Shown here in pieces: positions 1,832 through 26,154 of a DNA stretch of 26,610 nucleotides. A program made the position numbers and the translations under genes. Origin of the DNA: a virus. Position 1 is the first letter of the stretch. Every line of letters starts with the position of its first letter. The notes beneath the pieces were generated by a model. It saw only the letters and a list, made by a program, of their open reading frames with translations, did no database searches and had not been told where the DNA came from. Where the stretch lies: IMG/VR virus record IMGVR_UViG_3300017666_000013, positions 1 to 26,610 of that record; one strand, written 5' to 3'.

Positions 1832-1859
1832 TTGACAAATGTTCCTATTCTGTTCCAAT
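1832..1859 (+). promoter_or_regulatory. LexA-type (SOS) operator within a promoter
   Basis: A -35 element TTGACA (1832-1837) is followed by GTTC-CTATTCT-GTTC (1841-1855), an exact match to the alphaproteobacterial LexA consensus GTTC-N7-GTTC. The -10 position (about 1854-1859) is weak. The flank ACCTGGGGTTG also precedes the second copy of this arrangement near 18534. It sits about 110 bp before the membrane protein gene at 1970 and probably makes the accessory genes behind it DNA-damage inducible. The operator match is direct; regulation is inferred. Confidence 0.75.
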
Positions 1860-2473: not shown

Positions 2474-3247
2474 GTGCCAGATCGACATGCTCTCACAATT
2501 CAGCTGATGCCTGGGACGGTCGGACATGCGGCCGTGACGCTGACCGACCCGTCCGGGCAGACCTATGCGGGTTTCGGACCGTCATGGCACAAGATGCCGA
2601 CGAGTCCTCCGCAGTTCGACGTGCATACCGTGCCGCCGGGAACGACGTCGCTTCCTTCCGACTACTCCAACGTGTTTGGAGACACGGGCTATCGGACCTT
2701 TACGCTGCCGATCACCGCGGAGCAGGCGAACTCCGCCCACGCGGAAATCGGTCGCATCGCGAACGAGAAGGACCTCTACAACGTCCTGAGTTCGGATCCT
2801 CGCGTCTGCACCTCCATCGTCGACCGCATCATGCGCGCGGCCGGCGTGAATGCCGGCCTGTCGCTGTTTCCGCAGGTGGAATTCGACCGCTTCTCCGACA
2901 TTTCGGAAACCCTTGCGAAGGATCCGAAGGCGCGAGTCACAAACCTGAATGAGCGCCAGTTCTCGATCCCGGAGGCGCTGCGCGGTCTTCAGCCCGATTA
3001 TGCCTATGTCGGCGCCGGATACGATACGCCCTCCGAGCGGGTTCGGCGTGTTCGGCCCGGTGTCGATGATGGCGGGCAACGGGATCAGGCTGCGCCGTTC
3101 GCGGACCGGTTCGGGAGCTGGCTTGCGTCCCCGGTCGGGACCGTCCCGGCCGCCGGCGAAACCGAAGAACCTCTGGCTCGCGCCGGAAGGCCCCTTCGTC
3201 CCGAGGACATGCGCCGACTGACTCGCATGCCACCGGTGGATCGCTGA
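2474..3247 (+). CDS. Putative papain/NlpC-like cysteine hydrolase (probable frameshift near C-terminus)
   Basis: The GTG at 2474 is chosen because AAGGAGG (2462-2468) precedes it at good spacing; the longer open frame from 2384 adds an Arg-rich leader with no family character. The product (257 aa) shows a near-N-terminal GHAAVTLTD motif (His18) and later YNVLS...VCTSIVDRIMRAAG (Cys112). This His-before-Cys order is typical of circularly permuted papain/NlpC-like amidases, including some secreted effectors. The likely target would be a peptidoglycan peptide or an amide bond, but catalysis is inferred. From about 3030 the +1 frame (open to a stop at 3219-3221) has clearly higher GC3 and more natural residues, so the true C-terminus may be shifted. 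The gene lies between terminase and portal and looks like an accessory insert. Confidence 0.55.
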   Translation: MPDRHALTIQLMPGTVGHAAVTLTDPSGQTYAGFGPSWHKMPTSPPQFDVHTVPPGTTSLPSDYSNVFGDTGYRTFTLPITAEQANSAHAEIGRIANEKDLYNVLSSDPRVCTSIVDRIMRAAGVNAGLSLFPQVEFDRFSDISETLAKDPKARVTNLNERQFSIPEALRGLQPDYAYVGAGYDTPSERVRRVRPGVDDGGQRDQAAPFADRFGSWLASPVGTVPAAGETEEPLARAGRPLRPEDMRRLTRMPPVDR

Positions 3248-3342
3248 TGATGACGGTACTTTTCGCGGCGGCCAACGCAGCAAGCCTTGTCGATCCGCAA
3301 GCCTGTCAATCCAAGGCCCTTGCCCAACAAAAGGTCTCGCAA

Positions 3343-3972
3343 ATGAAAATGTCGATCTCCGACGTGAAGGCGATGCTCGCCGCCGAGAAGGCCAATGCGC
3401 TCGCCGCGATGTCGGCGGCGCGGCTGGCCGAGGAGCGGGCCGATGCGATGGACTATTACCTCGGCGACATGCGCAAGGACATGCCGGCGCAGGACGGCCG
3501 CTCGCGCGCGGTGTCGACCGACGTCGCCGACACCATCGAGGGCCTGATGCCGCAGCTGATGGATATCTTCGCCGGATCGGACGAGGTGGTCCGCTTCGAG
3601 CCGGTCGGTCCGGAGGACGTCGCGGCCGCGCAGCAGGAGACCGACTACGTCAACCACGTCTTCATGCAGCAGAACGGCGGCTTCATGGTGCTCTATTCCT
3701 TCATCAAGGACGCGCTGCTGTCGAAGGCCGGCATCGTCAAGGTCTGGTGGGAGGAGCGGGAGGAGGAGAGCCGCGAGACCTATTACGATCTCAGCGACGA
3801 GCAGTTTGCACTGCTGGCGCAGGACGTGGCGGTATCGAACGGGGCGATGAAGATCGTCGCGCATACGGTGCACGGCGCCGGCGCGTTGCAACCGGACCGC
3901 GGCGACGATGATCGCCATGCCGACGTCGGAGGCATGAACGTGCGCGATGTGCAGGGCGATGCAATCGGATGA
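3343..3972 (+). CDS. Portal protein, N-terminal fragment (P22-like), interrupted
   Basis: This is the first half of the dodecameric portal through which DNA enters and leaves the capsid. From the start (ATG 3343 or 3349) the sequence is portal-like: a helical MSISDVKAMLAAEKANAL start, then AMDYYLGDMRKDMP, VSTDVADTIEGLMPQLMDIF, and a GGFMVLYSFIKDALLSKAGIVKVWWE segment split here only for naming. This matches P22-type portals before the clip domain. Portal-like sequence ends near 3875 (KIVAHTVHG), after which about 30 unrelated codons run to a TGA at 3970-3972. The same frame resumes with portal sequence near 4165. A functional portal would need the intervening stretch to be removed or read through. 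Mutational inactivation is the simplest reading. Confidence 0.8.
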   Translation: MKMSISDVKAMLAAEKANALAAMSAARLAEERADAMDYYLGDMRKDMPAQDGRSRAVSTDVADTIEGLMPQLMDIFAGSDEVVRFEPVGPEDVAAAQQETDYVNHVFMQQNGGFMVLYSFIKDALLSKAGIVKVWWEEREEESRETYYDLSDEQFALLAQDVAVSNGAMKIVAHTVHGAGALQPDRGDDDRHADVGGMNVRDVQGDAIG

Positions 3973-4008: not shown

Positions 4009-5673
4009 GTGCTCCTGTGTTCCCTTCTGCCCCGTCCGGCGCAATGCCTCGTCGCCGGACAATCCCAGATCGCTGGGGCTGCCACGCATATCGAACCGAA
4101 AGTTCAACCAGACATGCCTGTTCCCTTGCTCGCCCCGGCGCCATCCGCGCCGATGGGGCCTCTCATCACGCATGACGTCACCGTCGTCACCACGCGCAAG
4201 CTTGCGCAGGCGCGGGTGATGGGCGTGCCACCCGAAGAATTCGGCATCGAGCGTGGCGCGCGCAGCATCCGCGACTGCAACTATTGTTTCCATGAGGTCG
4301 TCACCAAGACCGAGGCGCAGTTGATCGCTGAGGGCTTCGATGCCGGCCAGGTCAGGGCGTTGCGGCCCCAGACCGGCACGACCGAAATCGAGACGCTGGC
4401 GCGCGACACGGTGGAAGAACATCTGTCCGCGACCGCCGGCGGCGGTAGCGTCAATTCGGCCGCGCGGCTCGTGCGCATCACCGAGCACTATGTCCGGATG
4501 GACTATGAGGGCTCGGGTCGACCCTGCCTCTACCAGGTCATTACCGGCGGCGACCAGGCCGAGATCCTGCGCAAGGACGGCAAGGACTGCATCACGCCGT
4601 TCGACGAGATGCCGTTTGCGGCAACGACGCCGGTGCCGGTGACGCACCGCTTCTTCGGGCGATCGATCGCGGACCTCGTGATGCCGTTGCAGCGCGAGAA
4701 GACCGCGCTGAAGCGCGGCGCGCTCGACAATCTCTACCTGCACAACAATCCGCGCGTCGAAGTCGCCGAGCAGAATGCCGGGCCGAACACGCTGGACGAC
4801 CTGCTGGTATCACGGCCGGGCGGCGTCGTCCGCACCAAGACGGCGGGCGGGCTGAACTGGCAGGTGGTCCCCGACATCACCACGTCGATCTACCCGATGC
4901 TGCAATACATCGACGCCGAGCTCGAGATCCGCACGGGTCTCGCCAAGCAGACGCAGGGCATCGACGCCAACGCGTTGCAGAACCAGTCCGCGACCGCGGT
5001 GGCGCAGGTGTTCTCGGCCTCGCAGATGCGCATCAAGCTGATCGCGCGCATCATGGCCGAAGGCGTACGCGACATTTTTGCGCTGCTGCATGCCACGATC
5101 CGCAAGCATGGCCAGCGGCAGGAGACGGTACGGCTCCGCAACGCCTGGGTCGAGGTCAATCCGCGGAACTGGAAGACGCGCGAGGACATGACCATCCATG
5201 TCGGCCTTGGCGCCGGCGGCAAGGCGCAGCAATTCGCCCAGACCATGGCGATCGCCAACGTGCAGAAGGAACTGCTGGCCGGCGGCAAGATCAATCTGGT
5301 CGGTGATCGTCAGCTCTACAACACCGCGGCCGAACTGACGCGGATCATGGGCCACCGAAACCCCGACCTGTTCTTCAACGATCCCATGGCCGTCAACTCG
5401 CAGAACGGGCAGCTCCTGAACCCGCCGCCGGCGCCGCCGCAGCCGCCGCCGGACCCGAAGGTGCTGGCCATCCAGGCGAAGGCGCAGGCCGACGCCGCAT
5501 CGGCCGCGCAACAGGCGCAGCTCCAGCAGCAGAAGGCGCAGAACGACGCGCTCCACCTCCAGGTCAAGACGCAGGGGGAGATCGAGCTTGCCAGGATCAA
5601 GGCCGCGCTCGACGCCAGGATGGCGGTGCTCGAAACGCATCTGAAGGCGGCGATCGGGGACGGGAAGGCGTAG
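4009..5673 (+). CDS. Portal protein, C-terminal fragment (P22-like)
   Basis: The frame is the same as that of the N-terminal fragment. True portal sequence begins near 4165 with THDVTVVTTRKLAQARVMG and VPPEEFGIERGAR, typical of the portal body. Further on are FFGRSIADLVMPLQREKTAL, HNNPRVEVAEQNAG, TGLAKQTQGIDANAL and IGIG-like barrel helices. The last 100 residues are rich in Pro, Ala and Gln (coiled-coil or barrel type). Possible starts are GTG 4009, ATG 4114 or ATG 4153, none with a strong ribosome-binding site, so independent translation is doubtful. The stretch 3880-4160 before it has no portal character. The frame stops at a TAG (5671-5673) but continues coding-like for 33 codons more, so this stop may also be a mutation. 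Confidence 0.8.
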   Translation: MLLCSLLPRPAQCLVAGQSQIAGAATHIEPKVQPDMPVPLLAPAPSAPMGPLITHDVTVVTTRKLAQARVMGVPPEEFGIERGARSIRDCNYCFHEVVTKTEAQLIAEGFDAGQVRALRPQTGTTEIETLARDTVEEHLSATAGGGSVNSAARLVRITEHYVRMDYEGSGRPCLYQVITGGDQAEILRKDGKDCITPFDEMPFAATTPVPVTHRFFGRSIADLVMPLQREKTALKRGALDNLYLHNNPRVEVAEQNAGPNTLDDLLVSRPGGVVRTKTAGGLNWQVVPDITTSIYPMLQYIDAELEIRTGLAKQTQGIDANALQNQSATAVAQVFSASQMRIKLIARIMAEGVRDIFALLHATIRKHGQRQETVRLRNAWVEVNPRNWKTREDMTIHVGLGAGGKAQQFAQTMAIANVQKELLAGGKINLVGDRQLYNTAAELTRIMGHRNPDLFFNDPMAVNSQNGQLLNPPPAPPQPPPDPKVLAIQAKAQADAASAAQQAQLQQQKAQNDALHLQVKTQGEIELARIKAALDARMAVLETHLKAAIGDGKA

Positions 5674-5775
5674 CGTCCCTATCCGCCGGGCGCGCGCAAG
5701 GCGAAAGGCGGTCACCACGACGTGCCGGATGCCGAGCGGCCCGGCAAATATCTGCTGGTCCTGCACCATGACTGA
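5674..5775 (+). other. Coding-like extension of the portal frame beyond an in-frame TAG
   Basis: After the TAG at 5671-5673 the portal frame stays open for 33 codons to TGA 5773-5775. It reads like a conserved protein end, including GGHHDVPDAERPGKYLLVL; I recall similar 'DP-RPGKY' ends from rhizobial phage proteins near the portal. No ATG starts it, and the only start-type codon is a GTG at 5721. Its stop overlaps the next gene's ATG at 5768 (ATGACTGA), and that gene has no ribosome-binding site of its own, so translational coupling through this frame is likely. It may be a nonsense mutation, a readthrough tail or the remnant of a small gene. Confidence 0.5.
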
Positions 5776-6343
5776 GTATTCGCTGGTGCCGGTCGCGCAT
5801 CAGCCGGACTTCGCGAATGCCTCGCTCGTTCCAGTCGAGCACGATCCGTTCAGCGATCCTGGCCCAACGCAGCAGGCGCAATTTCGGGAGCTGCAGCCGC
5901 AGGCTCGACAAGCGCCCGAATTCGGTCCGCAACAGTCAACCACGGGCGCCGGACGCCTCTATGTCGGTCCGGCGGCGAGGATCGAGCAGACGTCAGAACA
6001 GGGAAACTCCCGGGATCCGGACAGCGCAACGAACGCGACGTCCACACCCGAGCAGCCGCTCGCATCGACGCTCCGGCCAGACAAGCCTCCGCCTGAGTTG
6101 CCGCACTTTGTACCGCTGGGGGAGCTGAAGCCGGCAACCTTCACGCCCACACAGCAGATCGGGCATCGCGCCATCGATGCGCTGACCGCTTTCGGCGTAC
6201 CGCTGCACAATGCTCAGGAACTGGCGACGCGAATCGGCAATCTGCTGGGCTTGACGGCGTCGGAACGACCGCAAATGGCGGGCCGACTTTTGCAGGAACG
6301 CAGCCCCTCTATCGCGTGGCACCTGGGCAACGTAACATTGTGA
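5768..6343 (+). CDS. N-terminal part of a polymorphic-toxin-like protein (truncated by frameshift)
   Basis: Starting at ATG 5768 the product opens with an imperfect internal repeat, SLVPVAHQPDF then SLVPVEHDPFS. A Gln/Pro/Ser-rich disordered stretch follows to about residue 115, then a more ordered LKPATFTPTQQIGHRAIDAL and RIGNLLGLT segment. I recall such a 'LVPV-H-DPF' prefix and 'TPTQ-IG' domain at the start of larger toxin-like proteins in rhizobial prophages. The last 30 residues before the stop are unlike that family. A different frame (from about 6245) carries the C-terminal toxin domain, so this ORF is best seen as the surviving front of a broken gene. It overlaps the end of the portal frame. 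Confidence 0.6.
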   Translation: MTEYSLVPVAHQPDFANASLVPVEHDPFSDPGPTQQAQFRELQPQARQAPEFGPQQSTTGAGRLYVGPAARIEQTSEQGNSRDPDSATNATSTPEQPLASTLRPDKPPPELPHFVPLGELKPATFTPTQQIGHRAIDALTAFGVPLHNAQELATRIGNLLGLTASERPQMAGRLLQERSPSIAWHLGNVTL

Positions 6344-6569
6344 GAATAAGGCTTAGCGGCGGCCGAAAAGGGCGACGTCTTGCAAACAGCGAAGCTAATC
6401 TTCCTGGAACGCCGGTAGGATATCAATGGCACCACGTCGACGACTTCGATCCGGTGACTGGGAGGCCACGCTGGAACTGGTGACCGCGGGGGCGCATCGA
6501 TCCGCGAATCCCCATGCTGGCTCCGTTGCAAACTACGTCAACCAACATGGTGTCCCGTATCGGCGTTGA
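6244..6569 (+). pseudogene. Remnant of HNH-type (WHH/HHH-like) nuclease toxin domain
   Basis: In the frame of base 6241 the sequence reads GVGTTANGGPTFAGTQPLY, then NIVRIRLSGGRKG, then NLPGTPVGYQWHHVDDFDPVTG split here by the frame break. The next frame continues with EATLELVTAGAHRS and ANPHAGSVANYVNQ to TGA 6567-6569. The WHH core, ELV strand, AH and PHAG histidines are the layout of HNH-superfamily toxin tips such as Tox-HNH-HHH. The break falls in a G-run at 6460-6462; one extra G would join both parts perfectly. The domain is also out of frame with the N-terminal ORF at 5768, so two lesions separate it from a working toxin, possibly with an internal deletion. A SUKH immunity-type gene follows at once. 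Confidence 0.65.
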
Positions 6570-6583
6570 CGAGGAGAAAAGCA

Positions 6584-7039
6584 TTGGTTGTCTTCGAAGG
6601 GACCGCTCCCCCGCTTTCCGAGTTGGACATTCGGCGCGTCGAGCGCAAGCTGGGGATTCGTTTGCCGCAAGATCTCAAGGAGCACTACCTCCGCTTTAAC
6701 GGCGGAACCCCCCGGCCTGAATTCTTCGTCAAGGATGGAGAGGCCTATGACGTCAAAAAAGTCCTGCCTATGAACATTCGCGACGACATCGGATTAACCT
6801 TCGAAGATACCTACTTATTCCTGGTCCATGAGAAGCCAGAGTTCCCGCTCGGATATATACCGTTCGCGTGCGATTCAGCAGGTGATTACTTCCTGTATAG
6901 CGTCCAGCCCGGGTCCTTCGGGACCATCATGTTCAACTCAAGGGCAGATTACGGAGACGACGATCGGTACGTTTTCTTTCTCGCTGCTAGCTTGAGAGAA
7001 TTCATCAATTCTCTCACTGAATGCCCTGAAGGGATGTAG
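6584..7039 (+). CDS. SMI1/KNR4 (SUKH) family immunity protein
   Basis: The start is set at TTG 6584 because GAGGAG (6571-6576) lies seven bases before it; a TTG at 6566 would add six residues and overlap the toxin stop. The 151-aa product has SUKH hallmarks: an N-terminal LSELDIRRVERKLGIRLP helix, DLKEHYLRFNGG, the central IPFACDSAGDYFLY strand pair, and a final VFFLAASLREFINSL. SUKH proteins commonly act as immunity proteins that bind and neutralise nuclease toxins, including HNH types, in polymorphic toxin systems. The gene lies directly behind an HNH-type toxin remnant, as expected for a toxin-immunity pair. It is intact and appears less GC-rich than its neighbours. An orphan immunity gene could still protect the host against sibling toxins. 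Confidence 0.85.
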   Translation: MVVFEGTAPPLSELDIRRVERKLGIRLPQDLKEHYLRFNGGTPRPEFFVKDGEAYDVKKVLPMNIRDDIGLTFEDTYLFLVHEKPEFPLGYIPFACDSAGDYFLYSVQPGSFGTIMFNSRADYGDDDRYVFFLAASLREFINSLTECPEGM

Positions 7040-7433: not shown

Positions 7434-7568
7434 GTGTTGCAACCGAAACGAGAGTCGTGAAGAATGTTTCGCGTTTGTTCTTGCGATGGTGACGTGTCTT
7501 CATCTCAAGCGGCGTTGCCAAACTGAGCGGCATCCATGCGGTGCCGGCTGATAAATGGTGATCCGTAA

Positions 7569-8417
7569 ATGGGCTTCAGAATAGTCCAGGTCAGAACGCC
7601 AGTCTTATCTTCGCTTGCTGCGCTGTTGTCGCTGTCGAGTCTCCTCCTGGTCGGTCAGTCCAACGCCGAAGAGAGCTTGTTCGACCGAAATGTGTTGCGA
7701 GGTGCAGTTGACGGATGCCAACGTGTCGTCGTGCGTCCCATCGCGCTTTCCGACAGCCAGGACGTCGTGTGTTTCGATGGCCGGATCGAGAGGGAAGCCG
7801 ACGTAGCAGCGGCGCTGAAATTGAAGGAAGGCGGGATCTTCGTCGTCCGGAGCGCCGGAGGCGACATCGCGGCGTCGATCGCTCTGGCCAACATTCTTCG
7901 CGACCGGCGTGCAGTGGTCGTCGTCCATGATCAATGTTTGTCCAGCTGCGCGAACTATATTCTGATCGCATCGGCTCGGAGCTATGTGCTCAAGGGCGCT
8001 CTGGTCGCATGGGACTACGAGAGCAGCGATCCCGCTCTACCATCATGCGCCACATTTGCGATGGAGAAGACGCGAGATGGAGATTTCCGCCTGCAGCGCG
8101 GCTCCTGCCAGCCCTTGTCTGCCGACGAGGCTCAATGGCGGAAAATCGTGCTGGCCCAGACCGCATTCTACCGGGAGCGGATGATCGACCCGCGCTTTGA
8201 GCCGCCGCCGGACAATCGGTATCTGCGAAAGATGGTCAAGTCTCTCTATCCCGATACTCGCGCCTACCACCATATCGGGTGGACTCTTCACCCCAGATAC
8301 TTCGAGAGGTTGTTCAAGACCAAGATTGTCTACGAGGCCTATCCGGAAGGGCAGGCCGAAGTAGACGAGATGGTGGACCGGCTGCGTCTCGACATGAGGG
8401 TGATTTACGACCCGTAG
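7569..8417 (+). CDS. Secreted ClpP/crotonase-fold-like protein (accessory)
   Basis: The N-terminus (282-aa protein) is a Sec signal: a basic start, a Leu/Ser-rich core at residues 11-30, and a likely cleavage after SNA (residue 33). The mature part shows a ClpP/crotonase-like pattern: a GGIFVVRSAGGDIAASIALANIL strand-turn-helix, with SAGG like the oxyanion region, followed by HDQCLSSCANYILIASA. There a Ser in C-L-S-S-C-A (about residues 125-126) is in the place of the nucleophile of related periplasmic proteins (COG3904-like). It would act in the periplasm, perhaps as a serine hydrolase; a His or Asp partner cannot be assigned by eye. There is no structural role in virions that I know of, so it is probably a moron. 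A near-match to a LexA half-site pair lies upstream but is weak. Confidence 0.6.
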   Translation: MGFRIVQVRTPVLSSLAALLSLSSLLLVGQSNAEESLFDRNVLRGAVDGCQRVVVRPIALSDSQDVVCFDGRIEREADVAAALKLKEGGIFVVRSAGGDIAASIALANILRDRRAVVVVHDQCLSSCANYILIASARSYVLKGALVAWDYESSDPALPSCATFAMEKTRDGDFRLQRGSCQPLSADEAQWRKIVLAQTAFYRERMIDPRFEPPPDNRYLRKMVKSLYPDTRAYHHIGWTLHPRYFERLFKTKIVYEAYPEGQAEVDEMVDRLRLDMRVIYDP

Positions 8418-8507
8418 GCCAGGCGCTCGGCCGATGGCGAAGTGAACCAATCCGTTTTCCGCCCTCCGTTCTTCGCCCCGTGAATTGGCAAGCGTGGTGC
8501 ATTGAAG

Positions 8508-8861
8508 ATGAAAGAAATACCGACCGACAGCGATCGAACGACTCCGATCCTCGATTATCCCGGCTATTCCATGCCTGGCTTTTTGTCGTGGTTGCCGGGT
8601 GAGATCCCAGGGCTTGGTATCCCGGACTGGGGTCCCATTCCACAGCTGCGGCGTGAGCGGCCGGTGACGCCGCCGTCTCGGAATCCGAATCTGCCGCCGG
8701 CGCACGAAGTCGATCCTCCGGATCGACCTCCTGAATGGCTGTTCGGTCCGCCGCGCATCGTCGAAGCCCCGCGTGTCTCGCGCCAGACGATGGCCGAGAC
8801 TCCTCCGGCGACGGCACGACCGTCGTCAACGCCACCAGCCGATCTCATCATCGGCGGATGA
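8508..8861 (+). CDS. Proline-rich hypothetical protein (possible truncated effector prefix)
   Basis: ATG 8508 is used; TTG 8502 is also in frame. The 118-aa product is rich in Pro, Gly and Trp: DYPGYSMPGFLSWLPGEIPG, GIPDWGPIPQL, then PPSRNPNLPPAHEVDPPDRP and WLFGPPRIVEAP. It has no membrane segment or catalytic motif and is probably extended. Prefixes of this kind seem familiar to me from larger effector-like ORFs in rhizobial prophages, but I cannot confirm that without a search. The same frame beyond the stop at 8859 continues open for some distance, and an ATGA overlap (ATG 8858) begins a 52-codon ORF. Truncation of a longer gene is therefore possible. Confidence 0.45.
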   Translation: MKEIPTDSDRTTPILDYPGYSMPGFLSWLPGEIPGLGIPDWGPIPQLRRERPVTPPSRNPNLPPAHEVDPPDRPPEWLFGPPRIVEAPRVSRQTMAETPPATARPSSTPPADLIIGG

Positions 8862-9264: not shown

Positions 9265-10227
9265 ATGTCCCTTCCGACTTCCACTTTCGTCACGTATTCC
9301 GCGGTGGGTAACCGCGAAGACCTCAGTGACATGATCTATCGCATCGATCCCGTCGACACGCCCTTCATGAGCGGCGTCGACAAGGAGAAGGCCACAGCGG
9401 TCAACCACGAATGGCAGACCCAGGCCCTCGCTGCGGCCGACAGTGCCAATGCCCAGCTCGAGGGCGATGACCCCAACACCAACACGACCACGCCGACCGT
9501 GCGCCTCGGCAATCTCTGCCAGATCTCCTACAAGGTCGCGCGGGTCTCGGGCACGCAGCAGGCGGTGGATCACGCTGGCCGCGACAACGAATTGGCGTAT
9601 CAGGAGATGCTCAAAGGTCTCGAGCTGAAGCGCGACCTCGAAACCATCCTGTGCGGAACCAACCAGGCCAAGGTGGCGGGCAACACCACCACCCCGCGCA
9701 AGAGTGCGTCCGTGCTGTCCTGGATCGTATCGAACACGTCCAAGGGCACCGCCGGTGGTGCAGCGGACCCGGCAGCCGCCGACGGCACGGGCACGCGAAC
9801 CGACGGCACGCAACTCGCCTTCACCGAGGTGCGCCTGAAGACCGTGCTGTCCTCGATCTGGATCAATGGTGGCAAGCCCGGCACCATCATGACCGGCGCC
9901 TTCAACAAGCAGGTGTTCTCGACCTTCACCGGTCGCTCGACCGCGATCGAGGAATCCAAGTCGAAGAAGATCGTGGCATCGGTCGACGCCTACGAGTCCG
10001 ATTTCGGCAAGCTGAAGGTGATCGCCAACCGCTTCCAGCGCCCGCGCGACGTCCTCGTGCTTGAGATCGAGAAGTGGGCGGTGGCCTACCTCAATGGCCG
10101 CAACATGATCTCGATCCCGCTGGCCAAGACCGGCGATTCCGATCGCCGGCAGATCCTGGCGGAATATGCGCTGGTGTCCCGCAACGAGAAGGCCTCGGGC
10201 GGCGTCTTCGACAATACCACCTCCTGA
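9265..10227 (+). CDS. Major capsid protein (SU10-like, DUF5309 type)
   Basis: This 320-aa protein should form the icosahedral shell. It opens with TSTFVTYSAVGNREDLSDMI and IDPVDTPFMSGV, typical of SU10/DUF5309 capsid proteins. HEWQTQAL, a DNELAYQEMLKGLELKRDLE spine helix, a Gly/Ala/Thr-rich loop (about residues 160-185), and INGGKPGTIMTGAFNKQVFS follow. The end has RNMISIPLAKTGDSDRRQIL and a YALVSRNEKASGGV strand. ATG 9265 has AAGGAAA about eight bases before it. Length fits the family. A strong terminator-like hairpin follows immediately, which would give the capsid gene higher transcript levels than its downstream neighbours. Confidence 0.93.
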   Translation: MSLPTSTFVTYSAVGNREDLSDMIYRIDPVDTPFMSGVDKEKATAVNHEWQTQALAAADSANAQLEGDDPNTNTTTPTVRLGNLCQISYKVARVSGTQQAVDHAGRDNELAYQEMLKGLELKRDLETILCGTNQAKVAGNTTTPRKSASVLSWIVSNTSKGTAGGAADPAAADGTGTRTDGTQLAFTEVRLKTVLSSIWINGGKPGTIMTGAFNKQVFSTFTGRSTAIEESKSKKIVASVDAYESDFGKLKVIANRFQRPRDVLVLEIEKWAVAYLNGRNMISIPLAKTGDSDRRQILAEYALVSRNEKASGGVFDNTTS

Positions 10228-16230: not shown

Positions 16231-17292
16231 ATGAGTGCTCCCGACATCCAGGACCTTTACACGCGCTATTTGCGAGTACTTGGCGGTTCGAGCAATTCGC
16301 CGAAGTCTCCCCCTTCAATGCCGTTGAACCAACCCCGGCAGTTCGGTGTCACGGTGACGCCTGAGAACCATCCGGCAAGTGGCGGCTATCGGTCCGGAGG
16401 TGTGCTTGGAGCGCTGAGCATGATGACGCAAGGCATTCCTGCGCGTGGAATGGGGGCGATCACGCCTCCAGTCCCGGTACCGACGGGCTTGCGAGGAATA
16501 TCCCCACTTCGTCGGTTTGGTGTTCAGCCAGGTGTCTCGGGATTTGTGCCGGGCAGTACGGTCGAGATTCCGAATCCTCATCTCGACCGGTTTGTTCCTC
16601 AGACGACGCGGGACATCTGGACGGCGGCTGCTCTCCTTCCCTGGATATTGCGGGGCAAATTGACGGGCGAGGATCCTTCCCGTGAAACCCCACAGGAACA
16701 AGTCAACTCGCGCTCGTCCGAAGACATGCCTCAACCTCCCGTTCTCCGTCCCGGCGGTCAGCCTCCGTGGATCATGGGACCAGCCATATTGGACGCGGCT
16801 CGGGGACGAAAGGAAGCGCTCGATACGGAGGAGAAAGTCGAGGCGCGGCCGGATAGTCAGCAGCGTGAATTGAGGACGGTCGAGCCAGATGGTCAAGTGA
16901 CTGAAATCATATCTCTTGCGCCTGATCCTTCAATGATGGGCTGGCGCAAGAAACTGAAGGGAAAAGGAGGACGAATACCCGGAGGCCGCAGCGTTTGGAA
17001 GGTGCGTCCAAACGTCGGCTTCGGAAATAATGGACCAGGCGGAAAAGGTCCTGGCGAAAACGGTGACGATGACGATTTTTGTTCAAGCCGCAGACGGAAA
17101 GAAGACAAGAAATGCTCGAAGAGGTGGCGCGACGGTGAGTACGCTCACAAAGACTTCTATTGGGGATGTAAGGAGAGAGCAAAAACAAGATGGGAAGGTT
17201 GCTATAAGAATGGCGGAACCCCGCCGGACGACGAACCTGCGGAATGGAGTCTGGATCCGGATGGAGAGCTGTACATCAACATAGACCGTTGA
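16231..17292 (+). CDS. Accessory protein with C-terminal four-cysteine domain (effector-like)
   Basis: I recognise no named enzyme. The 353-aa product has a long Pro/Gly/Arg-rich, probably disordered front (residues 1-200, for example QPPWIMGPAILDAARGRKEA). A basic hinge around residue 240 (KKLKGKGGRIPGGRSVWKV) and an acidic GDDDDF turn lead to a compact C-terminal domain. That domain has Cys284, 295, 313 and 324 spaced C-X10-C-X17-C-X10-C, with GCKERAKTRWEGC and YKNGGTPPDDEPAEW. I recall this Cys-pattern ending from toxin-like ORFs of rhizobial prophages. It could be a disulphide-stabilised or metal-binding effector. The DNA looks less GC-rich than the flanking structural genes, consistent with later acquisition. 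A TPR-like gene follows. Confidence 0.6.
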   Translation: MSAPDIQDLYTRYLRVLGGSSNSPKSPPSMPLNQPRQFGVTVTPENHPASGGYRSGGVLGALSMMTQGIPARGMGAITPPVPVPTGLRGISPLRRFGVQPGVSGFVPGSTVEIPNPHLDRFVPQTTRDIWTAAALLPWILRGKLTGEDPSRETPQEQVNSRSSEDMPQPPVLRPGGQPPWIMGPAILDAARGRKEALDTEEKVEARPDSQQRELRTVEPDGQVTEIISLAPDPSMMGWRKKLKGKGGRIPGGRSVWKVRPNVGFGNNGPGGKGPGENGDDDDFCSSRRRKEDKKCSKRWRDGEYAHKDFYWGCKERAKTRWEGCYKNGGTPPDDEPAEWSLDPDGELYINIDR

Positions 17293-17365
17293 TGAGGCTT
17301 TTCTTTCCAACGTGGACAAGATTGAATGTGGTCATTCCAATTGGTTCAGAATGTGGTGCTCAGGA

Positions 17366-17983
17366 ATGGCCATGCCGCAAGATGATACCCTGACCAGCCT
17401 CATTTGCTGGACAGAGCAATTGCGACGAGAGCAGTCGCTTGATCTTGTGATCGACATCGTTGCTCAGCGAGCAGATCAAGAAGAGGGGGAGGTTCATCTC
17501 TTCCTCGTCTACGAACTCGCTGGACTCTTGAACGAAGCCGGGCGATCTGCCGAAGCCATCCAACTGCTTGAACAAACGTTGGATCGTTATCCGGACGAGG
17601 TTCGTCCTGCCCTGATCATGACGTCAATCCATCTCACAACGCTCGAACGGCCGGAAGACGCACTCATGTCCATAGAGGTTGCACTGGAGCGAGCGCGTCG
17701 GAGCGGGGCGTTCCTGCGGGAGGCGCTTGGCAACAAAGCTCGAATACTGCTGGAGCTTTCTCGCGGTAACGATTTGTCGGACGTGCTGGAGGAGATCATG
17801 TCTGTTCAAGTGAGGCCATCCGTGCCGGACATTGCGCGCGAGCGCGACTTCGTCGACCGTGCGCCTCCGGGGCTCATCCGCGCAAACGTTCTGGAGCGCT
17901 ACAATGAATTCCGCCCGAGACGTTCAAGTGATGGATCAGGCCACGAACCCCCGGAGTTCGGACCGGCAAAAGACTTCAATTGA
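17366..17983 (+). CDS. TPR-like helical protein, possible partner of the four-cysteine protein
   Basis: The start is uncertain: GTG 17312, ATG 17366 or ATG 17372; family-like sequence begins near residue 10 of the ATG 17366 form. The product (about 205 aa) is made of paired helices: WTEQLRREQSLDLVIDIVAQ, LFLVYELAGLLNEAGRSAEA, IQLLEQTLDRYPDEVRPALI, PEDALMSIEVALERARRSGA and REALGNKARILLELSRGNDL. These repeat like tetratricopeptides. The end is charged and probably flexible. Such a protein would bind another protein, and its place behind the effector-like gene makes it an immunity or chaperone candidate. There is no direct evidence of interaction. Confidence 0.6.
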   Translation: MAMPQDDTLTSLICWTEQLRREQSLDLVIDIVAQRADQEEGEVHLFLVYELAGLLNEAGRSAEAIQLLEQTLDRYPDEVRPALIMTSIHLTTLERPEDALMSIEVALERARRSGAFLREALGNKARILLELSRGNDLSDVLEEIMSVQVRPSVPDIARERDFVDRAPPGLIRANVLERYNEFRPRRSSDGSGHEPPEFGPAKDFN

Positions 17984-18463: not shown

Positions 18464-18533
18464 GCGGGGGACAGCGCGGGCAAGGACACTGAAATAAGCC
18501 CTCAGCAGCGCCATCCAATCGGACGACCTGGGG

Positions 18534-18562
18534 TTGCATAAGTTCCTGATTTGTTCTAATAT
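18534..18562 (+). promoter_or_regulatory. Strong promoter with embedded LexA-type (SOS) operator
   Basis: TTGCAT (18534-18539), a 17-base spacer and TAATAT (18557-18562) form a near-consensus sigma-70 promoter. The spacer holds GTTC-CTGATTT-GTTC (18542-18556), an exact alphaproteobacterial LexA box, so bound LexA would block polymerase. The flank ACCTGGGGTTG is the same as at the first copy near 1832. The next convincing gene starts at 18925. Sequence match is direct; control by LexA is inferred. Confidence 0.85.
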
Positions 18563-18924
18563 ATCTACGGTCCGCCCGGCTGGGAGTGATCGAGAATGTC
18601 GCCTTCTGGAGCTTGCGGGGATTGGGCACCCGCCCCCGTGTTGGCCGAAACTGCCTGGGGCCCGCGCCTCGAAGCTCGCGCAGGGCGGGTCGGCAGAGGT
18701 GCGTCGTCGAGGCGGCGTCTGCCAGCGTGCGTCGGCGATCGCCAATCTGTTTCGCGATCGAGGTGCGATCTTGGTGATCGGGGATTTTTGCTTTCCCCGC
18801 CTTGGGGCGCGTCTTTGCTGGATCTGTTCAACCACCCACCGTTTTTCCGATCGACGAGACGAAGTGCGGCGCTGCGACGCCGTGGAATATGTATCACGCC
18901 AACTCACAGCCAAGGACATCATTC
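18563..18924 (+). other. Leader region behind the SOS-type promoter, no convincing gene
   Basis: About 360 bases. The first ATG behind the promoter (18596, ATGTCG) opens an Arg/Ser-rich ORF that overlaps the next gene and does not look like a real protein; other frames are no better. The region may be a decayed gene once controlled by the promoter or a long untranslated leader. The ribosome-binding site for the next gene (AAGGA, 18912-18916) lies at its end. Confidence 0.5.
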
Positions 18925-21078: not shown

Positions 21079-21537
21079 ATGTCGTTTAGACCGGTTTTGT
21101 TCGTCATCATTGGGATGACAAGCCTTCTCGCCTCAATCGATGCATTCGCCGGTGACTATACCGTCTCTTATGCCTTCGATCGCACGACGAGGGAGGATGT
21201 TACAGCAGGCGCGACGAGCCCGTTCAATGAGGCGGGGACTACGAATGAGTGCCAGTATGACAGATATTGCAGGATAGTGCTGCCGAAGTCGGATCTGACG
21301 ATATCGCTCAAGGTCGAGCGGTCGGGTTACCACAAGGTGGTCGTGCTGGCCGACGGCGGCCGTAGCCGCAGTATCGGGTGCTGCTTTTTCTCGGACGGCG
21401 AGCGCCGGGTTGAGCGCGATGTTGTCGAGCCCCTGCTTCGCCTGCGCATTTTCGAAGGGCGCGCGCGCAGGAGGAACGAATTCGTCGAGAACCTTCCGCT
21501 GGGTCTTCTGTATCTGCAGCTCTCGAACCTGAAATAG
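21079..21537 (+). CDS. Small secreted protein of unknown function (accessory)
   Basis: The 152-aa product has a clear signal peptide: MSFRP, then hydrophobic VLFVIIGMTSLLASI and a cleavage site AFA|G after residue 24. The mature part is beta-rich and holds two cysteine pairs (ECQYDRYC and GCC), which may form disulphides in the periplasm. The C-terminal half is charged (RLRIFEGRARRRNEF). There is no structural role known to me. It sits between the scaffold-like gene and an ORF with a DPNPFAPP element. Probably a moron affecting the host envelope or an exported partner of its neighbour; this is inference. Confidence 0.6.
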   Translation: MSFRPVLFVIIGMTSLLASIDAFAGDYTVSYAFDRTTREDVTAGATSPFNEAGTTNECQYDRYCRIVLPKSDLTISLKVERSGYHKVVVLADGGRSRSIGCCFFSDGERRVERDVVEPLLRLRIFEGRARRRNEFVENLPLGLLYLQLSNLK

Positions 21538-21630
21538 TTCGCAGCTTCGGCTCGTCTTCATCGCCCCCCATTTCGTCAGCCGGTCGGTCCCTCTCATTGC
21601 AGGGGCGCATCGGCATGTTTCCAGGATCAC

Positions 21631-22173
21631 ATGATGGCCACCATCGAACGGCAGTACCTGCCCCCCTTGAATGCCGAGACGACCATTGCGGAGGCTGATC
21701 GCCCGCGCATTTACGATATCGTTCGCAAACAATTGGCCGATCTCCTCGAAGGCGAGCAATCCTACTATCCGGATGGTGTCCAGAAGGACTGGCAGGCTCG
21801 GTCCGAGGATCTCGATGGTCTCATCGGATCAATCTCGAGCTTGAGAGGACGTGTCAACGATCCGGCCGATATCCTGGGAGACGTCGTCCGGCATCTCGGT
21901 GAGCATGCAGCCGCATTCCGCGATCGCATCAAAGAGGCGGGACCGTCGGACCCGATCGAGCTGCCGCCGGCATTGTCGCCGACCACCCGGGACAGGAACG
22001 AACTCTACATCGATCCAAATCCGTTCGCTCCGCCGATGGAGGCTCTTCCCCGTCCGAGACAGGAATGGCCGATGTCAGCGATCGCTGGCGATCCCACTGG
22101 CAGGAGAGCGGTCAGGCCGGAACGACGCGTCGCGCCACCAATATTCTTTCCGATGCAGAGCCGGGTCCGTTGA
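21631..22173 (+). CDS. Hypothetical protein with DPNPFAPP element (accessory)
   Basis: ATG 21631 (or ATG 21634) begins a 180-aa product. The front is helical and acidic: TIAEADRPRIYDIVRKQLAD, GVQKDWQARSEDLDGLIGSI, ADILGDVVRHLGEHAAAFRD. The rear is extended and Pro-rich: ELYIDPNPFAPPMEALPRP and RRVAPPIFFPM. I do not recognise the family, although similar ends seem familiar from rhizobial phage ORFs near effector-like genes. It follows a secreted protein gene by about 90 bases. It may be the partner of that protein or a small phage accessory factor. Confidence 0.55.
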   Translation: MMATIERQYLPPLNAETTIAEADRPRIYDIVRKQLADLLEGEQSYYPDGVQKDWQARSEDLDGLIGSISSLRGRVNDPADILGDVVRHLGEHAAAFRDRIKEAGPSDPIELPPALSPTTRDRNELYIDPNPFAPPMEALPRPRQEWPMSAIAGDPTGRRAVRPERRVAPPIFFPMQSRVR

Positions 22174-24394: not shown

Positions 24395-25081
24395 ATGGTA
24401 GACCTCAACGCCCTCACTCGGGCGAATGCCGGCCGCTGGGCGAATGCCAGGCTGGTCCGGAAGACCGAGGCGGCGAACGTTGCCGCTCGGCTGTGCAAGG
24501 CCCGGCCGCGATACCAGGCCGTCGAACGCAGGACGGGCGTGCCCTGGCCGCTCGTTGCGGTCATTCATGAACGGGAATCGTCCCAGGACTGGCGGGCGTC
24601 GCTCGCCCAGGGAGATCGCTGGGATCGGGTTTCGGTTCACGTACCGGCGGGACGGGGGCCCTTCGAGTCCTGGGAAGCGGCCGCGGTCGACGCGCTGGTC
24701 GCGTGTCCGCCTTATCTGGCGCGTCGCAAGGACTGGTCGGTCGCGGCCGCCCTGACCGCGCTCGAGACCTACAATGGCATCGGATACGCGGCGCGTGGCG
24801 TGCCGTCGCCTTACCTGTGGTCCGGCACCAATCAGTACCGCGCCGGCAAGTATGTCCGCGATGGTGTTTACGATTCCGGCCGGGTCGATCAGCAGCTCGG
24901 CTGTGCCGCGCTTCTCATCGCGATGAAGGAGCTGGATCCCGAGATCGGGTTTGCCGGCGGTGGCGCAGCCCGAGGTGACATCAACGATACTGCCGCACGG
25001 CCGTCGCTCAGGAACCCGTCGAAAGGCTCGATAGGCGCGTTCGTTGTCAGTCTGTTCAAGGCCATGTCCGGGAGGAAATGA
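24395..25081 (+). CDS. Endolysin (lysozyme-like peptidoglycan hydrolase)
   Basis: ATG 24395 begins a 228-aa protein. A lysozyme-like core is clear: a helix VERRTGVPWPLVAVIHERES (His58, Glu59, Glu61; one of the Glu residues is the likely catalytic acid), SLAQGDRWDRVSVHVPAG, ALTALETYNGIGYAARGVPS, and YLWSGTNQYRAGKYV. It would cut the glycan strand of peptidoglycan at lysis. There is no signal peptide, so it needs a holin for export, and four small membrane protein genes follow. The C-terminal 40 residues look linker-like. I recall this family as a phage lysozyme in rhizobial phages. Confidence 0.8.
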   Translation: MVDLNALTRANAGRWANARLVRKTEAANVAARLCKARPRYQAVERRTGVPWPLVAVIHERESSQDWRASLAQGDRWDRVSVHVPAGRGPFESWEAAAVDALVACPPYLARRKDWSVAAALTALETYNGIGYAARGVPSPYLWSGTNQYRAGKYVRDGVYDSGRVDQQLGCAALLIAMKELDPEIGFAGGGAARGDINDTAARPSLRNPSKGSIGAFVVSLFKAMSGRK

Positions 25082-25083
25082 AC

Positions 25084-25233
25084 ATGCATACGATCGTCGA
25101 CATCATGCTCTTTGTAGCCGGTTTTGCCGCTTCCTGGTTCTGCAAGGACCACATCCTGCGCGCCGTGGCCGGTGCCGACGCGCTGATCAAGGTAATCGAG
25201 GACAGGCTCGCGGCCCTGCGGAGCAAGGTCTGA
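25084..25233 (+). CDS. Small single-span membrane protein (lysis cassette)
   Basis: ATG 25084 follows GGGAGG (about 25071-25076). The 49-aa product has one hydrophobic stretch (VDIMLFVAGFAASWF, residues 5-19) and then a charged amphipathic helix with LIKVIEDRLAAL. It starts three bases after the endolysin stop, and its own stop overlaps the next ATG (TGATG at 25231-25235). The layout fits a pinholin, antiholin or spanin-like part of a lysis unit, although no family can be named. Confidence 0.6.
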   Translation: MHTIVDIMLFVAGFAASWFCKDHILRAVAGADALIKVIEDRLAALRSKV

Positions 25234-25484
25234 TGCTCGGGAAAATCAAGGCTGCCTGCCTGCATTCGGCGACCATTGCCTGGAGCTACTGCATTGCACT
25301 CGCCGGCGTCGCGGCGTCCGTCGTCGATGACCTCGCCGACGCACTCGGGGATCCCGGCTTGAAGGAACAGATCAGCGCGGCGATTGGCGACACCAGAACG
25401 ACGGGTCGCGTTCTGCTTGCAGTCTCCGTCGTGACGATCGTGGCGCGGCTGCGAACACTCAGGAGGAACAGTTCATGTGGATGA
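25233..25484 (+). CDS. Holin-like membrane protein
   Basis: ATG 25233 shares its A with the previous stop. The 83-aa product has a hydrophobic N-terminal segment (SATIAWSYCIALAGVAASVV, about 12-31), an acidic loop (DDLADALGDPGLKEQI), a second hydrophobic segment (GRVLLAVSVVTIVARL, about 58-73), and a basic end (RTLRRNSSCG). Two spans with a basic tail are typical for small holins, and it lies directly behind the endolysin region. The longer frame to 25044 covers the previous gene and is rejected. Confidence 0.6.
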   Translation: MLGKIKAACLHSATIAWSYCIALAGVAASVVDDLADALGDPGLKEQISAAIGDTRTTGRVLLAVSVVTIVARLRTLRRNSSCG

Positions 25485-25858
25485 CGATCATTTCGTTTCT
25501 CGGCGGGCCTGTCGTCAAGGCGCTTGTTGACGCTTACAGCGCAAAGCTCAAGGCCGAGAATGTGGACAGCAGGATCGCCGCCGATCTGGCTGCCAGCGAG
25601 ATCGCAGCGCAGTCTGCCGAGGCTCGCATCATTGGCAACTATCGCGTTGCAGAGTTGGGGCTCTGGTATGAGCCCGACAAGCTGATGGGATACGCGGTGG
25701 CGCTCTACTTCGCGAAGCTCCTCGTCTGGGACAAGGTTCTAGGCCTCGGCTCGACAGATGCATTGGCGGGCTTTGCGGCGATCACGGCCAACCTCGTGGT
25801 GTCGTTCTATTTCGCGAAGCGCGGTTTCGAGAATGTTGCAAGGATCATCAAGCGGTGA
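25475..25858 (+). CDS. Membrane protein of the lysis cassette (holin-like)
   Basis: ATG 25475 overlaps the end of the previous gene by ten bases (ATG 25481 is an alternative). The 127-aa product has a short hydrophobic front (IISFLGGPVVKALV), a coiled-coil-like Ala-rich helix (NVDSRIAADLAASEIAAQSA), then LGLWYEPDKLMGYAVALYFA and a second hydrophobic part DALAGFAAITANLVVSFYFA. It is followed by a four-base overlap with the next gene. I recall similar proteins as holins of rhizobial and gene-transfer-agent-like clusters. A spanin-like role is the alternative. Confidence 0.6.
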   Translation: MWMTIISFLGGPVVKALVDAYSAKLKAENVDSRIAADLAASEIAAQSAEARIIGNYRVAELGLWYEPDKLMGYAVALYFAKLLVWDKVLGLGSTDALAGFAAITANLVVSFYFAKRGFENVARIIKR

Positions 25859-26154
25859 AACCACAGGACGACGACATCAGGGCGATCGTTGCCGAGACGC
25901 TGGCCGAGCAGCACCGGATCCAGCAAGAGAATATCGACAGCATCGTCATGAAATCGGTGGCGTCGGTGCTGGCCTCTTTCGGAATCGAAGACGATGACCG
26001 CCGAGAGGTTCGGGCAGATTTCCAGCATCTTCGACGCTGGCGGAAGAGCGTGGAGCAGGCTCAGAGCTACACGTTCAAGGCAGTGATCACGGTGATCGTC
26101 AGCGGTCTCGTGGGCGCCGTCTGGCTCGGCGTCAAGGTCATGTTGGGCAAGTGA
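25855..26154 (+). CDS. C-tail-anchored small phage protein (DUF6127-like)
   Basis: GTG 25855 overlaps the previous stop (GTGA). The 99-aa product has a charged helical front with DDDIRAIVAETLAEQHRIQQ and REVRADFQHLRRWRKSVEQA, and a C-terminal membrane span (about residues 74-95; FKAVITVIVSGLVGAVWLGV). The order of charged domain then C-terminal anchor is that of a small lysis regulator or antiholin. The HLRRWRKSVEQAQSYTFKA stretch is what I associate with DUF6127-type phage proteins. Coupled translation with the preceding gene supports a shared role. Confidence 0.6.
   Translation: MKPQDDDIRAIVAETLAEQHRIQQENIDSIVMKSVASVLASFGIEDDDRREVRADFQHLRRWRKSVEQAQSYTFKAVITVIVSGLVGAVWLGVKVMLGK

Follow-up and report, generated by a model that had tools for sequence, protein, structure and literature searches.

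What are two copies of a host-type SOS operator, the direct repeat GTTC-N7-GTTC, doing among the structural genes of a virus, and which genes do they serve? The DNA that we analyzed is IMG/VR virus record IMGVR_UViG_3300017666_000013, positions 1–26,610 (26,610 bases; hereafter, the window). It encodes TerL (271–1800), a portal divided over two ORFs (3247–3972 and 4009–5673), a SU10-type major capsid protein (9265–10227), tail genes and probable lysis genes. The lysozyme-like and holin-like ORFs, judged by eye, lie close to the end of the record (24395–26154), and the segment 24395–25081 had no Pfam match. The explanation that we favor, to which we assign a probability of roughly 80%, is that the boxes belong to LexA-repressed, SOS-induced promoters of accessory cassettes, carried by a SU10-like element of Bradyrhizobium.

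Both boxes named in a preliminary description of this DNA are present and exact, and so is the flank that they were said to share. Site 1 (1824–1861, + strand) consists of the flank ACCTGGGGTTG (1824–1834), a perfect −35 element TTGACA (1832–1837), the box GTTCCTATTCTGTTC (1841–1855) and a weak −10 element (1856–1861), which reads as CAATGC after 18 bp or as CCAATG after 17 bp. Site 2 (18526–18562, + strand) repeats this layout, with the same flank at 18526–18536, a −35 element TTGCAT (18534–18539), the box GTTCCTGATTTGTTC (18542–18556) and, at a spacing of 17 bp, a −10 element TAATAT (18557–18562). At site 2, TTGCAT matches at 3/6 positions and the −10 element at 4/6, so the 'near-consensus' label given to the second promoter was overstated, and a generic promoter scan of the window listed neither site. 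A third, decayed box was found at the g7104/MCP junction (site 3, 7439–7486, + strand); its sequence, GTTTCGCGTTTGTTC (7466–7480), has GTTT in place of GTTC in the first half, and intact counterparts exist in five related loci (L005, L025, L031, L033 and L036). Site 1 likewise has same-junction counterparts in L004, L031, L035 and sp21, as does site 2 in L003, L006 and L009, where the cassette is still in place.

Counting the bare motif says little about these sites. The window contains 2 copies where 0.81 are expected, and 14 of 100 shuffled sequences reach 2 copies, which is not significant; the case therefore had to rest on relatives. A capsid protein query returned 27 loci in bacterial genomes, nearly all of them Bradyrhizobium, and 80 in viral contigs, and dereplication at 98% capsid DNA identity left 94 SU10-like loci, mostly from Bradyrhizobium. 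Exact GTTC-N7-GTTC sites were collected from every locus; most fell at the same few core-gene junctions and pointed along transcription. From 62 dereplicated sites, all of them outside the window, we built a profile with a sigma-70-like layout, TTGAC(A)-N17-TA, in which the 17-bp spacer between the −35 and −10 elements is filled by the box; operator and promoter thus overlap throughout the training set. The conserved columns are both GTTC halves, T8, T/A9 and T10, while the outer flanking columns carry about 0 bit. Conserved T positions within a spacer are unexpected for a sigma-70 promoter and fit an operator.

Scored with this profile, site 2 reaches 38.3 bits, site 1 19.0 and site 3 14.1, compared with a top score of 9.3 bits among 40 Markov-shuffled windows; site 1 nevertheless scores below every site used in training. 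Across the 94 loci, the profile matches junctions 79 times on the coding strand and 0 times on the other, with 1 match in core genes. A genus-wide search of 147 genomes with TTGACN3GTTCN6TGTTC returned 79 matches versus 8 for the reversed control; the usual spacing in host genomes is TTG-N5, and a search with TTG-N6 missed most sites. One might still attribute the GTTC repeats to chance, without regulatory meaning, and take the promoters next to them for those of ordinary morons, given a bare-motif count near expectation in the window and the weakness of sites 1 and 3. For the family as a whole, however, chance is statistically refuted by the 79:0 strand bias, by the per-position conservation across the 94 dereplicated loci and by the link to cassettes described below, and we consider this reading extremely improbable.

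The link to cassettes was quantified by sorting junctions between core genes into those that are empty and those that are filled with extra DNA. Excluding portalC/g7104, a box is present in 69 of 192 filled junctions and in 0 of 59 empty ones (94 loci, p = 2.8e-10); the remaining 123 of 192 filled junctions have no recognizable box. The g11963/g13531 interval always holds another core gene and was counted as filled, which makes the comparison conservative. Boxes are located at the upstream edge of the inserts: the core gene before the insert is usually no more than 150 bp away from the first box (53 of 73; median 47 bp). The proposal that host-type SOS operators head accessory cassettes is borne out by this distribution, since boxes occur almost exclusively in junctions with extra DNA and in the coding direction.

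The same counts bear on a second suggestion of the preliminary description, that late genes themselves may answer to LexA. According to this alternative, the boxes place the late structural genes under LexA control and the cassettes are bystanders. Two features of the window agree with it: box 2 now points straight at the core gene g18802, and a simple scan found no coding-strand terminator after cassette A, which makes read-through possible. Yet not one of the 59 empty junctions is boxed; the upstream-edge position of the boxes argues in the same direction. We therefore regard control of the late genes as quite unlikely: the box marks accessory cassettes, not late genes.

Why, then, does site 2 face a core gene? 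In relatives, this site is followed by two cassette genes, one ClpP-like and one Pro-rich. The window shows no homology to these relatives between about 18563 and 18897, a stretch without recognizable cassette genes (18563–18897, + strand), and homology returns at about 18898, at g18802. No RNA family was found in the window, so this stretch is unexplained by a known RNA gene. Compared with relatives, site 2 is an orphaned promoter (18534–18562) that faces g18802 only because the cassette behind it has disappeared.

The flank shared by sites 1 and 2 had been taken as a sign that a promoter module was copied, perhaps from a host SOS operon. The flank proves to be the 3′ edge of a conserved junction, and it returns, slightly altered, at the same junctions in relatives; it was not found at the host recA or lexA promoters. 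An origin in a host operon is consequently unsupported, and the orientation of the host boxes, given below, speaks against it as well. Copying of the promoter between the junctions of sites 1 and 2 is possible.

We now turn to the genes that these promoters would control. All cassettes of the window lie on the + strand. Cassette genes score poorly in a codon model because their codon usage is atypical; the ORF calls in the relatives' cassettes are accordingly approximate, and one 48-member ORF cluster mixes at least two families. Cassette A, behind site 1, encodes a 124-aa membrane protein (1970–2344; homologs in L031 and L143), for which no family match was found and which would be immunity-like by its position, followed by a 257-aa protein (2474–3247). 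The latter also lacks a family match, but contains an invariant His18 and Cys112, which make it a possible cysteine hydrolase, and ends in a DRFGSW ... RRLTR tail that it shares with other cassette proteins. A structure model of this protein was set aside for its mean pLDDT of 43. Cassette C, behind the decayed site 3, encodes a secreted ClpP-fold protein (7569–8417; Foldseek match to ClpP, E = 3e-5), whose family is among the commonest in box-led cassettes, and a Pro-rich protein of the cassette repertoire (8502–8861). Neither cassette A nor cassette C contains a known immunity family.

The other cassettes of the window have no box. Cassette D (16231–17983) encodes a 353-aa Pro-rich protein, a basic protein and a TPR protein, at a junction that is boxed in some relatives. 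Cassette F (21079–22173) encodes a secreted protein and a 180-aa protein and is led by an SOS box in L184, L190 and L211. Cassette B (5729–7039), at the portalC/g7104 junction, combines a VPVEHDPF-type protein (5729–6343) with a SUKH immunity protein (6566–7039). Cassettes with VPVEHDPF-type proteins at this junction never have an SOS box, and none of its 22 filled cases does. The cargo of boxed and unboxed junctions also differs: a hydrophobic N-terminal segment is present in 44 of 79 box-led first genes versus 1 of 21 at portalC/g7104 (p = 1.3e-5), a comparison that rests on the approximate ORF calls.

Across relatives, box-led cassettes include M23 peptidases as well as ClpP-fold secreted proteins, cassette products include DUF6968 proteins, and many cassette proteins have no family. 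The loci contain 48 occurrences of the motif [DE]R[FYW]GxW, all of them on the coding strand and almost all within cassette ORFs, whose N-terminal parts differ. At the C-terminus, the motif is often accompanied by GGLPGMI and RRL(T/S)R stretches (2474–3247, L005, L008, L018, L077 and others), and such a shared tail could possibly serve in sorting or loading. The ClpP-like family is found at three different junctions, and the 21079/21631-type cassette at several; from this distribution, cassettes appear to move among junctions. As in the window, the portal is divided over two ORFs in almost every relative; the first ORF often ends in a conserved ATS-stop, and the split houses cassettes of up to 5.4 kb. 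A single uninterrupted portal ORF was seen in L017 and in Kaistia L026 (comparison of the window, L017, L026, L031, L036 and L073).

Of the genus-wide matches to TTGACN3GTTCN6TGTTC, 30 loci were examined, and a DUF4261-type gene comes first in 14 of them (L183, L185, L188, L191–L195, L198–L200, L204, L207 and L210). The gene behind it at L198 is Imm11 (E = 6e-32), and at L191 a DUF4261/Imm11-type pair adjoins the same Nramp gene as the one flanking the element elsewhere. At L120 (G003:C20:49576-49598), an SOS-box promoter precedes a gene with a nucleotide-cyclase-like start, possibly a defence gene. A role of the cassettes in toxicity and immunity would fit these family resemblances and pairings.

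Which repressor would bind the box? Phages usually control their genes with regulators of their own, and four genomes have an S24 repressor-like gene on the contig of the element, upstream of it. Both points would favor boxes that are operators of an element-coded CI- or Cro-like regulator using a GTTC direct repeat, with cassettes that follow the element's own lytic switch. We rejected the S24 gene as the cassette regulator, however, because it lies outside the element, among conserved chromosomal neighbors, and because its own promoter region has TTCCGATATTCCGAA-type repeats and not GTTC-N7-GTTC. The element itself yielded no S24/LexA-type repressor, nor did the 40.5-kb record G004, and the same promoters head DUF4261 genes even in genomes without a detected capsid gene. 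An element-coded regulator also leaves aside that the box is common to host SOS genes: GTTC-N7-GTTC is found upstream of recA and of lexA, each in three Bradyrhizobium genomes, with T10 shared. We consider such a regulator unlikely.

The boxes of host recA and lexA support the host-type character claimed for the operator, although their orientation is opposite to that of the gene, whereas cassette boxes read along transcription. The alphaproteobacterial LexA site is GTTCN7GTTC/GAACN7GAAC, with both orientations accepted (PMC3091678). Host LexA is thus the best candidate repressor and, judged by operator sequence, very likely controls the cassettes; another regulator with the same half-site is possible. 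In the host genomes at L121 and L136, a GTTCTTGATTTGTTCC box lies 38 bp before a radical-SAM gene, which is likely a host SOS gene. Its identification as imuA was rejected, as its Pfam match is Radical_SAM. A literature search found no papers about Bradyrhizobium prophages that deal with LexA or SU10-like elements.

The chromosomal setting indicates what kind of element carries these cassettes. It lies between the same chromosomal genes in OK095, sp21, BTAi1, PAC48 and others, about 11 genomes altogether, while more divergent relatives are not at this site within the stretches that were fetched. No tyrosine integrase (PF00589) was found near the element in 7 genomes, and no tRNA that might mark an att site was seen near it. 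The capsid gene is present in 28 of the 147 genomes of the genus, some 20 of them close relatives. Taken together, the shared locus, the lack of a detected tyrosine integrase or tRNA beside it and the distribution of the capsid gene suggest a resident, domesticated element, possibly GTA-like.

We propose the following mechanism. Each site would be a sigma-70-type promoter, with the LexA operator of alphaproteobacteria occupying its spacer. In an undamaged cell, host LexA would sit on the operator; upon DNA damage, LexA would cleave itself with the aid of activated RecA, the promoter would fire, and the accessory cassette behind it would be transcribed. Promoters of this kind would recur at the head of interchangeable cassettes lodged between core genes in the SU10-like, phage-derived element. 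Because secreted or membrane proteins, peptidases and immunity-type proteins make up most of the cassette products, the likeliest role of these products would be an SOS-induced toxin/immunity-like arsenal, made alongside phage-like particles or carried by them. A more specific version may also be entertained, in which the domesticated element serves as an SOS-induced weapon platform. Its LexA-box cassettes, each pairing an envelope-targeted protein with a DRFGxW/RRLTR-tailed effector, would be swapped between docking sites at set junctions, including one within the divided portal gene, and the effectors would be attached to phage-like particles through the tail. We put forward this weapon platform tentatively and consider it, on the whole, doubtful.

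If LexA-repressed, SOS-induced cassette promoters are the correct explanation, then the accessory genes of a phage-derived element are wired, cassette by cassette, to the host's DNA damage response, through a stereotyped promoter repeated at several of the insertion sites. Envelope-targeted genes frequently come first in box-led cassettes, and the portalC/g7104 junction is never boxed, a pattern suggesting that the type of control follows the type of cargo. With the promoter as a simple sequence tag, antagonism genes under SOS control could also be located throughout Bradyrhizobium, a genus of agricultural importance.

Several known systems share parts of this arrangement. Gene transfer agents, such as RcGTA and BaGTA, are phage-derived clusters of terminase, portal, capsid and tail genes at a fixed chromosomal site and without an integrase; the element resembles them in gene content and locus, but has a SU10-like capsid and portal and variable cassettes. 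Morons are accessory genes with their own promoter, placed between phage genes and often expressed in the lysogen, whereas the cassette promoter described here appears, from its operator, to be repressed by LexA until DNA is damaged. Colicins and other SOS-induced bacteriocins are antagonism genes under LexA repression that come with an immunity partner. Here, in contrast, several cassettes with putative toxin activity alternate with capsid and tail genes, in an element that also has packaging genes.

The operator itself is that of the alphaproteobacterial LexA regulon (PMC3091678), as found before recA and lexA of the same hosts; what differs is its placement along transcription within the promoter spacer of a phage element. 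In phage GIL01 of Bacillus thuringiensis, host LexA represses the lysogenic promoter (PMC4551915). The likeness lies in a phage promoter directly under host LexA and induced by the SOS response, which for our sites is suggested by sequence; the difference is that LexA and the phage protein gp7 run the main switch of GIL01, whereas here separate accessory cassettes carry the box. The MuF polymorphic toxins of temperate phages of Firmicutes are phage-coded, modular, located near the packaging module and proposed to be phage-delivered (PMC5576092). The cassettes would be similar in coding modular, putative toxins near a packaging module; however, no MuF domain was found in the cassette proteins scanned, their common part is the C-terminal DRFGxW/RRLTR tail, and SOS promoters are an added feature. 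LexA-controlled phage or bacteriocin genes and phage-coded polymorphic toxins of the MuF type are therefore known, while what appears to be new is the arrangement, in which a repeated SOS-box promoter stands at the head of exchangeable cassettes, often directed at the envelope, within a resident SU10-like element.
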